The notes beneath the pieces were generated by a model. It was not told the DNA's origin and made no database searches. It saw only the letters and a list, made by a program, of their open reading frames with translations. DNA of 36,347 bases, taken from positions 1-36,347 of IMG/VR virus record IMGVR_UViG_3300025101_000007; one strand, written 5' to 3'. Position 1 is the stretch's first letter. Each line of letters starts with the position of its first letter. This DNA comes from a virus. Shown in pieces: positions 1 through 10,436 of the stretch. Made by a program: the position numbers and the translations under genes.

Positions 1-99
1 TCTCAAAACGCTTTTAATGAGTATTATGGGGTTTCTGCCGCCGCTCCTGTCGCAACTTACAAAGGCCGTATACTTACAACAGGTAACGGATTTCCCTCG
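1..99. repeat. 99-bp terminal direct repeat, left copy
   Basis: Bases 1-99 are identical to 36249-36347. Both copies lie inside the same open reading frame and join it seamlessly, so this is best read as the overlap of a circular (or circularly permuted) assembly. A physical terminal repeat cannot be excluded from sequence alone. Confidence 0.95.
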
Positions 100-690
100 G
101 GATATATTGCTCTTAGTGCTAGTACAAAAATTGTTGTTGTTGCTGCAACCATTCCGGGCTATCGAAATACATACATATCAGTCGGCGGCTCAAATATGAC
201 GATGGCCGCAGATAGTTTCAGCACTGCTAGTAACACTCAAGGTAGTCATTCATTAATTTATTATAAAGAAATGACTACACCTGCTCAACAATACTATTTC
301 ACTGGAAATGGTGGTAGTGGTAGATCCGTTATTTATGTTTGGGAGATCACTGGATACAATAGTTCCACACCTTCATCTACGGACACAGAGTCAACAAGTA
401 CCGCTAACTACGGTAATAGTTATAGTGAAACCGTATCGTTATCAACTCAGTATAATGGCGTCACAATAGGGGCAGGACTTTGCGAAGATACTATCACTAA
501 TGGTGTGACAGTTAGCAACTCTGATCAAATAGAGCAAATTGATTTAGAGAGCGCTACCAACCATTACACATGGAAAGATGAAGGTACTAGTCTGGGAAGT
601 AGAAGTTATGTATGTACGCAAAACAACCCCGGAGCTAACGGTAGCAATACTGGAACTTTTCACCGAATAGCAGCCGCGCACTGGAAATGA
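1..690 (+). CDS. Tail fibre/adhesin-like structural protein, 3' part (gene crosses the circular join)
   Basis: This is the 3' part of a gene whose ATG is at 36123; bases 1-99 repeat 36249-36347 in the same frame, so the joined protein has about 271 residues. The reading frame is open from base 1 to the TGA at 688-690. The body is rich in Ser, Thr, Gly and Asn with alternating hydrophobic residues, as in beta-rich phage fibres, and it ends FHRIAAAHWK. There is no signal peptide or membrane segment. It lies one base before the tail stabilisation gene and after two other fibre-type genes, which suggests a receptor-binding or fibre-tip role. The function is inferred from composition and position; I recognise no enzymatic motif. 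Internal ATGs (such as 196) are not needed as starts. Confidence 0.8.
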   Translation, partial: SQNAFNEYYGVSAAAPVATYKGRILTTGNGFPSGYIALSASTKIVVVAATIPGYRNTYISVGGSNMTMAADSFSTASNTQGSHSLIYYKEMTTPAQQYYFTGNGGSGRSVIYVWEITGYNSSTPSSTDTESTSTANYGNSYSETVSLSTQYNGVTIGAGLCEDTITNGVTVSNSDQIEQIDLESATNHYTWKDEGTSLGSRSYVCTQNNPGANGSNTGTFHRIAAAHWK

Positions 691-691
691 T

Positions 692-7962: not shown

Positions 7963-8181
7963 ATGGAATATATTACTGGACTTTTTATTTATTACGTCGT
8001 GGCAAATACAAATGTTTTTACTATTATTTGGTACGAAAGCGAAAAAGAGTGTCTAGAGGCAATGATAGATCAAGCGCCTCTTTACATAAGTTTAGATGCA
8101 GAGGCGATGCTCTGCAAAAAATCAGACAAAATAAGTAAACCAATACCTAGGCCGAAAATACGGCCTGAGGCAGATACTTAG
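7963..8181 (+). CDS. Small hypothetical protein with N-terminal hydrophobic segment
   Basis: 72 residues. The first 22 (MEYITGLFIYYVVANTNVFT) form a hydrophobic segment, followed by a Trp-Tyr-Glu-Ser stretch with Cys in KECLEAMIDQAP and a Pro/Lys/Arg-rich tail. The layout (hydrophobic start, then an xSEKECxE segment) resembles small phage proteins of unknown role, and a similar layout is seen in the 57-aa protein at 9391-9564. It converges on the endolysin gene with a four-base overlap. Membrane association is likely; the function is unknown. Confidence 0.65.
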   Translation: MEYITGLFIYYVVANTNVFTIIWYESEKECLEAMIDQAPLYISLDAEAMLCKKSDKISKPIPRPKIRPEADT

Positions 8182-8651
8182 CCTATCTTTTCGAAGTGAG
8201 GTCCGTCCATGAAGGGGCGTCGTGACTGAGAACGTCTAAGATCTATGTATGCATTCATAGCCTCTTCCATTGTGCCTTCCCACTTACGAATATCCATTGG
8301 ATATTTAGCCTGAGGCGTACCCCACGCAGCTCCCCAGCAAATAGGAACGCCTACCTGTATGGCTGCATCTCGCATGGCGTCAGCTATATCATCATACACA
8401 TTGAGCTCCCAGCAAGCGCGTCCGTTGACGTATGCCATAAGATCGACGGCTTTACCCTCTAAGTGTTTAGATTTTAGCGTTTGGCTTGCCCCGGAGGCTA
8501 CGAGCTCTTTTTGCTGTTCAAGAGTTCTCATGCCTTGGATAACGCCAAAGTCTACTTTTGATAATGTGATAGCCATTTTAACGACGGCCTGTAGATCCTC
8601 GTCTACACCCTCCAGCCTGTCGAGGCTGCGTCTGCTTAATTTAAAACTCAT
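8178..8651 (-). CDS. Endolysin, M15-family L,D/D,D-peptidase
   Basis: 157 residues. The motif SKHLEGKAVDL (His63, Asp70) plus the C-terminal GPHFE (His152) give the three zinc ligands of peptidase family M15 (VanY/T5 endolysin type), which cut peptide cross-links or stems of peptidoglycan. Upstream, FGVIQGMRTLEQQKELVASG matches the conserved entry region of this family. It has no signal peptide, so release would depend on the holin. It overlaps the holin gene by four bases (ATGA), and is the last gene of the leftward lysis operon. The length is usual for single-domain phage M15 endolysins. Confidence 0.92.
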   Translation of the reverse strand: MSFKLSRRSLDRLEGVDEDLQAVVKMAITLSKVDFGVIQGMRTLEQQKELVASGASQTLKSKHLEGKAVDLMAYVNGRACWELNVYDDIADAMRDAAIQVGVPICWGAAWGTPQAKYPMDIRKWEGTMEEAMNAYIDLRRSQSRRPFMDGPHFEKIG

Positions 8652-8989
8652 TTCTTAAAACCTTTCATTGTACGTATTCCAAAGCTTGCGGCGATTGAGG
8701 CATACATGGCCCACGAAAACCACTGCGGCGCAGCCTGCAAATTCTCAAAGCCTTGTTTCATGTAAGGCTGTAACCAAGGCACGAAGCTTCCTAGCACAAT
8801 TGCGATAAAACAAAGCGTCCAAGCTTCGTCCTTCCAACTGTCAGCGCTGGCCTCTATTGCTGCCTGTTCCCAAGAGATCTCGCCGGTGGCAAGTTTCATT
8901 TTTGTCTCTGCTTCGGCTTGTTTTATCTTGGCCTTGCTATCAATAAATGTCGTAGCCAAATTTGCTACGCTTGAAAGTATACCTATCAT
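8648..8989 (-). CDS. Holin, 3TM (gene-transfer-agent/phage type)
   Basis: 113 residues. An amphipathic N-terminal segment (MIGILSSVANLATTF) is followed by a charged linker with SWEQAAIEASADSWKDEAWT. Two clear membrane segments come next, about residues 56-75 and 88-106, and the protein ends KGFKK. The SWKDE-x-WT entry to the first full membrane helix is the pattern of the holin-of-3TMs family. It is translationally coupled to the endolysin downstream (ATGA) and to the EF-hand gene upstream. The role would be to permeabilise the inner membrane for endolysin export. Confidence 0.82.
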   Translation of the reverse strand: MIGILSSVANLATTFIDSKAKIKQAEAETKMKLATGEISWEQAAIEASADSWKDEAWTLCFIAIVLGSFVPWLQPYMKQGFENLQAAPQWFSWAMYASIAASFGIRTMKGFKK

Positions 8990-9300
8990 TTTCTATTCCC
9001 CATGTTTGTGAAGCCAAAGTAAGCGCCGACTAGAGCTGATACACTTACAATATATATATTTGCAATATCAGCAATTAATTCAGCGGCTGTATCGTACCCG
9101 GCGATAGACGCTGCAACGATGCCGAGCGGATAGAAAATGAGGCCACTAATAGCTACCCACGTCATTTTTAACTGCGCGTTGCGCTTGTGGTCCATGTCTT
9201 CAATTTCTCTTTTTTTGTTATCTAAGAGTAATTCACGCTCGTCAGGGTCAATCTTCCCGTTTCCATTGAGGTCCCAAGCTTCCATCTCTTCCTTGTTCAT
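8986..9300 (-). CDS. EF-hand-containing two-TM membrane protein in the lysis cluster
   Basis: 104 residues. Residues 10-21 (DLNGNGKIDPDE) match the canonical EF-hand loop at every ligand position (Asp1, Asn3, Asn5, Gly6, Ile8, Asp9, Glu12). After a charged linker, two hydrophobic segments (about 45-67 and 78-95) span the membrane. It is coupled to the holin by ATGA and preceded by AAAGGA. The arrangement suggests a membrane protein with a calcium-sensing head, possibly an antiholin or timing factor. That function is inference, and single EF-hand loops may be structural. Confidence 0.75.
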   Translation of the reverse strand: MNKEEMEAWDLNGNGKIDPDERELLLDNKKREIEDMDHKRNAQLKMTWVAISGLIFYPLGIVAASIAGYDTAAELIADIANIYIVSVSALVGAYFGFTNMGNRK

Positions 9301-9418
9301 AAAGATATCCTTTCACTACTCTAGAACTGTGGCTCAGTATTAGCAGTTTACCTTTTTTGTTATAAGCTGCAAACTTGCCATTTCTTTTCTCTACTGTTGC
9401 GGATTTACGTTTAGGCAC
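9248..9418 (-). CDS. Possible small basic protein, GTG start
   Basis: An open frame of 56 residues from a GTG at 9418 (starting PKRKSATVEKRNGKFAAY after the initiator), ending at 9248. The region to about residue 38 reads like a genuine small basic protein (KKGKLLILSHSSRVVKGYL). The last 17 codons run out of frame through the start of the EF-hand gene, and the first 28 bases overlap the 57-aa gene. There is no strong ribosome site. It fills the otherwise empty gap 9301-9390. Low confidence; it could also be a decayed gene. Confidence 0.35.
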   Translation of the reverse strand: MPKRKSATVEKRNGKFAAYNKKGKLLILSHSSRVVKGYLYEQGRDGSLGPQWKRED

Positions 9419-9564
9419 GTCAAGGCCATACTTGAATGAGTTACCATGATCTTAGCTTTTTCTTTTTCAATATTACAACTTTCCAGATCCCCATAAGAAC
9501 CAATTTGGTAATACCTGAGGTTGTCAGTATTTACAAAGTGCAAAAAAATCAAAACGTAAATCAT
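9391..9564 (-). CDS. Small hypothetical protein
   Basis: 57 residues beginning MIYVLIFLHFVNTDNLRYYQ, with the ATG at 9564 overlapping the stop of the upstream gene as ATGA. This exact coupling within a leftward operon is strong evidence that it is real. The N-terminal ten residues are hydrophobic; two Cys (30 and 50) flank a charged helix (IEKEKAKIMV), which might form a disulphide in the periplasm. Its layout resembles the protein at 7963-8181. The function is unknown; its place between lysis genes suggests envelope action. Confidence 0.72.
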   Translation of the reverse strand: MIYVLIFLHFVNTDNLRYYQIGSYGDLESCNIEKEKAKIMVTHSSMALTCLNVNPQQ

Positions 9565-9971
9565 GGAAAATAATCTCTCAAATTTAGCCAGCCCATGTAG
9601 TGGAGGTAGCCAGCGCTTCCTACAAACGTAACAATAAGCAGTACGACTATTCCCACTATTGTTATCATTAACTCCTGAGCTGCAATCTGGTCCCTTCTGG
9701 CCTGAGCCTCAGCTTCTCGTTTTTCTTGTAAAACTTCCCGGCGTATTTTTAAAAGTGTCTGCCAGTGTGATGGTCCCAGCCCCGATTGCCGGGGGTCACA
9801 AATGAAAGCTTTTAATTGCTCTTCAGCGTCGGCGGCGGCCCTAAGTTTCGCAAATCGTTCCATACTAACTTTATTCACGTCAGAGCTGGTAATGCCTTTT
9901 TTCTGCAATTTTTTCTTTGCATTGTCGGTTGCATCGAAAAATTGTCCGAGCTGCTTACTCAGGCCAGCCAA
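9561..9971 (-). CDS. Lysis-cluster protein with helical body and C-terminal TM segment
   Basis: 136 residues from a TTG at 9971. The body is helical and charged, with GQLGQFFDATDNAKKK-like segments (residues 6-25) and a long helix (KIRREVLQEKREAEAQARRD). A C-terminal membrane segment follows, LMITIVGIVVLLIVTFVGSAG (about 100-121). The frame stays open upstream to an AAA codon, and the missing residues read IDPISLLSSIKLGISAGQSL, much like the N-termini of related phage proteins I recall. A GGGAGA ribosome site sits six bases before an ATC at 10028, so the true start may be that non-standard codon (155 residues). Membrane anchoring is clear; the role is unknown but lysis-associated by position. 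Confidence 0.72.
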   Translation of the reverse strand: MAGLSKQLGQFFDATDNAKKKLQKKGITSSDVNKVSMERFAKLRAAADAEEQLKAFICDPRQSGLGPSHWQTLLKIRREVLQEKREAEAQARRDQIAAQELMITIVGIVVLLIVTFVGSAGYLHYMGWLNLRDYFP

Positions 9972-10031
9972 AGACTGCCCGGCGCTAATTCCTAATTTGA
10001 TGGAGCTAAGAAGGCTAATAGGATCGATTTT

Positions 10032-10436
10032 TTATCTCCCATCAGACATTGTTGGGCGTCTTGCTAGAAACTCTATTGTGTTTTCTAGTGTCTTAACTCT
10101 GGCTTGCAATTTAACAATTGCCATCATATGGGTTGCCATACCTCCCACATCCTCATGTATCTGATCTATTTCAGACCATATAGACCCGTCGCCTTCTTCC
10201 ATATCCTCGTAAATTTCTGCAAGAATATCTGTTATCTCTTCGATGTTTTCACTATTTTGCTCTACATCCCTGATCAAATTTGTCCTGTCAGCGGCGCTGT
10301 TAGACGCCGTGAGGACAGCAATGTCTTCCGTGAGGGCTTCAATGGTGGCAGCCTGTTGGCTCACCCACCACACGCCTCCAGCGAGCTGCATGGCTAAAAC
10401 ACCCACAAGGGCTATAGGCAGACGCATATTTTCCAT
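10032..10436 (-). CDS. Membrane-anchored coiled-coil protein, first gene of lysis operon
   Basis: 134 residues. An N-terminal anchor (MENMRLPIALVGVLAMQLAG, then GVWWVSQQAA) spans the membrane, and the rest is acidic helices of coiled-coil type (about 28-75 and 95-125). The ATG at 10436 follows GGAG at the right spacing. The MRLP...GGVWWVSQQAAT start is familiar from marine phage lysis regions. The topology (short cytoplasmic N-terminus, periplasmic coiled coil) would suit an inner-membrane spanin-like or envelope-spanning component. That is inference, as I see no partner lipoprotein with a lipobox. Confidence 0.75.
   Translation of the reverse strand: MENMRLPIALVGVLAMQLAGGVWWVSQQAATIEALTEDIAVLTASNSAADRTNLIRDVEQNSENIEEITDILAEIYEDMEEGDGSIWSEIDQIHEDVGGMATHMMAIVKLQARVKTLENTIEFLARRPTMSDGR

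Follow-up and report, generated by a model that had tools for sequence, protein, structure and literature searches.

Holins set the time at which a phage lyses its host, and the physical trigger that acts on them is a long-standing question. The locus described here raises that question in a particular form: does a small membrane protein encoded beside a phage endolysin carry an EF-hand calcium loop, and could a metal ion acting on that loop contribute to the control of lysis? We addressed this computationally in a window of 36,347 nucleotides (the whole stretch of viral DNA analysed, IMG/VR record IMGVR_UViG_3300025101_000007) and in relatives of the protein from other phages. The original prediction had assigned an EF-hand loop to one of the membrane proteins in the lysis cassette and had suggested calcium-dependent lysis timing, in keeping with a marine setting. 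A description of the protein family was not found in the open-licence literature searched. We describe the protein as a holin-like lysis protein that carries its own EF-hand, in which both the holin role and metal binding are putative.

An EF-hand loop on a membrane protein in a lysis cassette

The gene lies at positions 8986-9300, as predicted, and is encoded on the minus strand, which the prediction had omitted; the plus-strand reading of the same interval is interrupted by stops. Its product, a protein of 104 residues (hereafter the EF protein), consists of an N-terminal helix, the loop, a charged linker and two membrane segments. The loop, residues 10-21 (DLNGNGKIDPDE; 9238-9273, minus strand), reads D10-L-N-G-N-G-K-I-D-P-D-E21 and fits EF-hand positions 1, 3, 5, 6, 8, 9 and 12, which confirms the proposed agreement at all ligand positions. 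Using the canonical pattern D.[DNS].[DNS]G.[ILVMF][DSTNG]..E, we found no other match in a six-frame translation of the window. The charged linker (residues 22-45; 9166-9237, minus strand) forms an exit helix that is continuous with the first membrane segment in the structural model. As anticipated, two segments follow, at residues 49-67 (9100-9156) and 75-93 (9022-9078, both minus strand) in a Kyte-Doolittle scan, and AlphaFold places helices at 19-67 and 80-101.

The EF gene is embedded in a run of minus-strand genes encoding, in order, an Rz-like protein, a protein that we call cTM, a 57-residue ORF, the EF protein, a phrog_2524 protein and an endolysin. It overlaps the phrog_2524 gene (8648-8989, minus strand) by the four nucleotides ATGA, and that gene overlaps the endolysin gene (8178-8651, minus strand) in the same way, bearing out the assignment to a lysis cassette. 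The endolysin, of 157 residues and M15 peptidase type, matches phrog_465 (E=2.7e-50) and, below the cut-off, Peptidase_M15_4 (E=1.9e-4). The prediction had further described the EF protein as coupled to the holin. The four-nucleotide overlap with the neighbour stands, but the neighbour itself, of 113 residues, matches phrog_2524 (E=5.5e-27), for which no function is named. Its first 26 residues weakly resemble (probability 81%) a protein of Roseobacter phage CRP-810 that scores above the cut-off for GTA_holin_3TM (PF11351, 73.6 bits). Because the likeness is limited to these 26 residues, calling the neighbour holin-like is a judgement from this resemblance and from position.

Upstream of the EF gene, the 57-residue ORF (9391-9564, minus strand), read from the sequence, has a hydrophobic N-terminus and overlaps the stop of the cTM gene by 4 nt; in 12 loci a similar ORF immediately precedes the EF gene. 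By eye, a short protein encoded at 7963-8181 on the plus strand, also with a hydrophobic N-terminus, has a similar layout. cTM (9561-9971, minus strand), recognised through clustered relatives, has one C-terminal membrane segment, and its true start may lie near 10028. At that position the window has ATC where a close relative has an ATG start, with no ATG, GTG or TTG there, and the mechanically called TTG start loses 19 residues that can be aligned with the relative; 9561-10028 would then begin at an unusual start codon or carry a mutated start. The tentatively assigned Rz-like, i-spanin-like protein (10032-10436, minus strand) has an N-terminal membrane segment and matches the Rz-like spanin family phrog_739 (E=0.0032); its best match, phrog_8909, has no function named.

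The loop is conserved in a large family of phage proteins

Relatives were gathered from IMG/VR in five scans, four of which were queried with the post-loop part of the protein only, so that the loop could not bias recruitment in those scans. The scans contributed the best 80 of 142, of at least 519, of 570, of 308 and of at least 597 relatives, respectively. Together with 8 loci from GenBank, these 400 made up 408 loci encoding 314 distinct proteins, and 320 of the 408 had been recruited with queries that left out the loop. As each scan contributed its best 80, counts by group reflect the queries chosen.

The prediction would have been refuted by degenerate loops among relatives. Instead, the canonical loop was kept in 301 of the 314 distinct proteins (408 loci, best 80 per scan plus GenBank). 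Of the 13 exceptions, 7 are truncated at a contig end. Leaving out these 7, by a rule applied to loop-less proteins only (an ORF starting no more than 75 nt from the contig start), the loop was kept in 301/307. The remaining exceptions comprise three proteins with a single substitution (Gly6 to Asn in L394 and L395, Glu12 to Gln in L103), one frame-shifted EF gene with the loop present in the other frame (L346) and two relatives in which the loop is lost (L364 and L409). The loop persists in relatives down to about 25% identity. Computed over all 307 proteins, including the loop-negative members, the ligand positions and Gly6 average 3.69 bits, compared with 2.14 for loop positions 2, 4, 7, 10 and 11. 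Synonymous codons vary; position 1 is GAT in 174 and GAC in 162 of 336 distinct loop-bearing genes. As controls, the pattern occurred 6 times in 2,490 distinct non-family genes (375,080 residues, from the first 247 loci), and shuffles of the N-terminal 45 residues matched it in 49 of 400,000 cases. This conservation suggests that a metal ion helps to control when or how the host cell is opened. A near-invariant EF-hand on a lysis membrane protein of many aquatic phages would let ion control of lysis be probed directly by mutation.

Named carriers include the Roseobacter phages CRP-345, CRP-810, CRP-207, CRP-9 and CRP-1, Pelagibacter phage HTVC008M, four Melnitz-type Methylophilales phages and the freshwater Limnohabitans phage DC31. 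Because DC31 carries both protein and loop, in a similar cassette, the family is not only marine, and we reject the marine setting as a requirement. A PHROGs family with no function named, phrog_27150, matched the relatives from CRP-9 (E=5.2e-11) and HTVC008M (E=2.4e-4); it was absent from the PHROGs matches of the window protein at E<=1. A separate scan of genome contigs yielded 10 loci, 8 with a canonical loop, 1 with a masked residue and 1 cut by the contig start. The masked residue, an X at loop residue 1 reflecting a masked or ambiguous base, is on contig NYWC01000011.1 of a bacterial MAG (L411); another contig of the same MAG has an intact loop (L412). A Streptomyces phage tape measure gene showed a weak internal match to the family (E 0.03).

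Similarity to EF-hand proteins and predicted topology

Profiles of the family matched calmodulin and EhCaBP in the PDB, with best E-values of 6e-8 and 3e-8. The best 60 of the 351 sequences matched at E<=1 had E-values between 6e-8 and about 2e-6, which are strengthened by the several EF hands in each target chain. The post-loop part alone, used as a profile, gave no EF-hand or PDB match at E<=1. Against Pfam, the window protein scored 16.1 bits with EF-hand_5, below the curated cut-off of 25.9, and the EF-hand and holin matches of ten relatives scanned singly were likewise all below curated cut-offs, which are a convention and not a biological definition of an EF-hand. At E up to 0.1, EF-hand_5 was matched by 57 and EF-hand_1 by 49 of 69 members. 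EF-hands usually work in pairs, although pairing is not strictly required; each of the 187 loop-bearing proteins counted had exactly one canonical loop and no second hand.

An AlphaFold model of the window protein, built from a 69-sequence alignment (mean pLDDT 78.8, pTM 0.47), comprised helices at residues 3-9, 19-67, 70-78 and 80-101. The first two flank the loop in a predicted helix-loop-helix, with pLDDT of 62-75 per ten residues in that region. Modelled from a separate alignment, a DC31-type relative had a similar predicted layout at lower confidence (pLDDT 70.2; helices 10-14, 24-65 and 71-111). Since helix 19-67 spans both the linker and segment 1, the helix leaving the loop is, in the model, the helix that enters the membrane. 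A Foldseek search of the PDB with the model returned no significant match; of the 5 entries at E<=10, 4 were EF-hand entries. The N-domain of EhCaBP1 matched structurally (Z 4.9, rmsd 1.7 across 42 residues), and 1cta, a synthetic single EF-hand that forms a homodimer, was among the weak structural matches; the top VIA row, 8vc9, was a long-helix match (Z 6.9, rmsd 5.2). The family shares with EF-hand proteins such as calmodulin and EhCaBP1 a 12-residue loop with canonical ligands and flanking helices, but differs from them in having a single hand fused to a two-segment membrane hairpin and in scoring below the Pfam cut-offs.

Two hydrophobic segments were found in 402/408 loci (Kyte-Doolittle; best 80 per scan plus GenBank). 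All 302 distinct proteins scored, those of the 307 with exactly two segments, were predicted by K/R count to have both termini in the cytosol (N-in/C-in); both calls are simple hydropathy and charge counts. Class II holins are defined by two segments and an N-in/C-in topology. The EF family resembles them in size, number of segments, predicted topology and, at many loci, an adjacent endolysin gene, but has an EF-hand N-terminus and, among the members scanned singly, no match above the cut-off to a named holin family; its holin role is putative.

Many EF genes lie close to lysis-family genes

We called neighbouring genes mechanically and clustered them by BLAST, naming each cluster from one representative or from the window gene. 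Among these names, that of the i-spanin-like cluster (iSPANa) comes from a weak match (E=0.0032), the gp26 and gp51 names follow the HTVC008M annotation, and cTM2 was named by eye. Lysis-family genes, defined as same-strand members of the endolysin, spanin-like or phrog_2524 clusters, occurred within four genes of the EF gene in 282/408 loci (best 80 per scan plus GenBank). They were concentrated immediately downstream, at +1 in 193/398 and at +2 in 161/379 loci, compared with 23 to 37 at each upstream place. In the best-80 samples, an endolysin or spanin cluster lay within four genes in 76/80 window-type, 80/80 CRP-9-type and 76/80 DC31-type loci, and in 12/80 HTVC-type and 29/80 CRP-207-type loci.

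The composition of the cassette differs between groups. Window-type loci combine a phrog_2524 gene with a phrog_465 endolysin. CRP-9-type loci combine a phrog_465 endolysin with a lipoprotein that has a C-terminal segment and is weakly spanin-like (phrog_1804); the corresponding lipoprotein of CRP-345 is annotated 'spanin2 family'. At DC31-type loci the EF gene is followed by genes for an Rz-like spanin and for an endolysin of the Peptidase_M15_3 type (78.0 bits, above the cut-off), and CRP-810 has GTA_holin_3TM together with an enzyme whose annotation is GH108. A second holin-like gene is present in the cassette of the window and in related ones. cTM has clustered relatives, one matching phrog_32327 (no function named), in the vicinity of the EF gene: in window-type, CRP-9-type and DC31-type loci, and also in 3 loci of the HTVC type and 2 of the CRP-207 type. 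The cTM gene often precedes the EF gene by one or two places. The link between the two genes is not absolute, since the cTM-like protein of CRP-345 is encoded some 22 kb away.

Two further genes were classified by eye. CRP-207 gp73 (3292-3873 in L085), annotated 'putative lysozyme', has by eye an N-terminal membrane segment and a coiled coil and looks more spanin-like. At an HTVC-group locus (L138), an enzyme that by eye is chitinase-like and resembles GH19 (32-691, plus strand) is encoded, like an i-spanin-like protein, some 1.5 to 2.7 kb ahead of the EF gene.

The EF protein as a candidate holin

Among the 80 CRP-9-type and 80 DC31-type loci covered, none had a phrog_2524-cluster gene within four genes of the EF gene, so the EF protein may itself be the holin and not an accessory to one. 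In CRP-1, the EF protein (gp56) and the cassette lipoprotein gp54 are the only two-segment proteins by our hydropathy cut-off among annotated coding sequences shorter than 300 residues (54 rows, with gp56 twice and larger coding sequences left out). Besides the EF protein and the lipoprotein, gp02, gp03 and gp46 of CRP-9 also pass the cut-off (55 rows, gp60 and gp61 left out), as do gp02 and gp42 of CRP-345 (69 rows, gp67 and gp68 twice) and several other mechanically called ORFs of DC31; these additional proteins are encoded away from the lysis genes. Weak matches to Phage_holin_3_6 were obtained for 22/69 members (E up to 0.1, best 9.3e-5), and in four relatives scanned singly the match was below the cut-off.

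Melnitz encodes an EF protein, annotated as hypothetical. The text of the Melnitz paper proposes curli CsgGF as a pinholin-like element, and a word-start search of that text for 'holin' gave a count of zero (PMC9004378). Together with the CRP-1 count and the weak Phage_holin_3_6 matches, these facts make holin or holin partner the best reading of the EF protein. CRP-1-type roseophages and myophages of the Melnitz and HTVC008M type thereby gain a candidate holin.

Two known systems offer partial parallels. The holin-like LysF1a/LysF1b pair of mycobacteriophages Girr and NormanBulbieJr, like the EF protein and cTM, combines in one cassette a two-TMD protein of N-in/C-in topology with a one-TMD protein; the pairs are compared by layout only, the segment of the one-TMD partner is N-terminal and not C-terminal as in cTM, and the abstract describes no EF-hand (PMC13056207). 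LysGH15, as described in the report cited here, is a phage lysin with a calcium site that resembles an EF-hand, but there the site belongs to the lytic enzyme and not to a membrane protein (PMC4022735).

A possible calcium feedback on lysis and its alternatives

We tentatively favour a reading, which we hold at somewhat less than an even chance, in which the EF protein acts in the membrane as part of the lysis cassette, most probably as a class II-like holin with two segments or as an obligate partner of a holin. Its metal-binding EF-hand would face the cytosol, with an exit helix that runs into segment 1, and through this EF-hand Ca2+ would feed back on lysis. In the intact cell, where cytosolic free Ca2+ is low, the loop would be empty or loaded with Mg2+. 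Once the membrane began to leak, periplasmic Ca2+ would enter and fill the loop, and the closing loop would rotate the exit helix and so promote additional assembly or opening. Such positive feedback could make lysis all-or-none. As exit helix and segment 1 are one helix in the model, closure of the loop could be passed on to the membrane part. The reading draws on the conserved loop, the two segments, the predicted topology and the frequent proximity to endolysin and spanin genes. Several observations weigh against it: the sub-threshold Pfam matches, the second holin-like gene of the window and related cassettes, the single loop per protein, the T4-like loci and the many HTVC-type and CRP-207-type loci that lack such neighbours within four genes, the other two-segment proteins of CRP-9, CRP-345 and DC31, and the two relatives that lost the loop. 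In its boldest form, the proposal would be that of a widespread calcium-gated holin family, whose cytosolic EF-hand is closed by Ca2+ entering through the first leaks, with cooperative hole formation as the consequence; its members would be the first membrane-lesion proteins of phages to contain a divalent-ion sensor of their own. We regard this wider claim as rather unlikely; if true, it would also give phages of the HTVC008M and Melnitz types a candidate holin.

The EF-hand could instead be a structural metal site, permanently occupied by Ca2+ or Mg2+, that serves to fold or oligomerise the N-terminal part of a lysis protein without signalling when lysis is to occur. Strong conservation of ligands does not by itself imply signalling, and the match to the 1cta homodimer makes dimers through the loop possible. 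Against this, the loop is predicted to face a cytosol low in free Ca2+ and so would not be loaded with Ca2+ without a leak, although it may be loaded with Mg2+. We consider a purely structural site unlikely, but it is the main alternative.

The EF protein could also act in the manner of an antiholin, restraining the holin-like phrog_2524 neighbour until entry of Ca2+ lifts the restraint. The two genes are tightly linked where they co-occur, overlapping by 4 nt in 57 of the 59 loci in which a phrog_2524-cluster gene follows the EF gene and by 1 nt in the other 2, and a paired system of a two-TMD and a one-TMD protein exists in mycobacteriophages (PMC13056207). However, with the phrog_2524-cluster gene missing near the EF genes of CRP-9-type and DC31-type loci, there would often be no known partner to restrain, and we find this role distinctly doubtful.

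A different set of loci raises the possibility of a virion or tail-associated membrane protein that acts in entry and lies near lysis genes merely through late expression. In HTVC008M and Melnitz, the EF gene is located between a baseplate hub assembly gene and the gene that HTVC008M annotates as tape measure. More broadly, 65 T4-like loci have the EF gene among tail genes, with gp26/gp51-type (T4-type hub) neighbours, and a lysis-family gene lay within four genes in 0/65 of them. This is countered by the lysis-family genes found within four genes across the 408 loci as a whole, and by 18 loci, all from the HTVC and CRP-207 groups, in which an i-spanin-like or o-spanin-like gene lies near the EF gene, with both present in 12/18. 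We consider a role in entry very improbable.

Finally, the sub-threshold Pfam scores of single members might suggest that an ordinary membrane protein has matched the pattern by chance. This is ruled out for practical purposes by retention of the loop in 301/314 distinct relatives, down to about 25% identity, and by the low base rate of the pattern in other genes.
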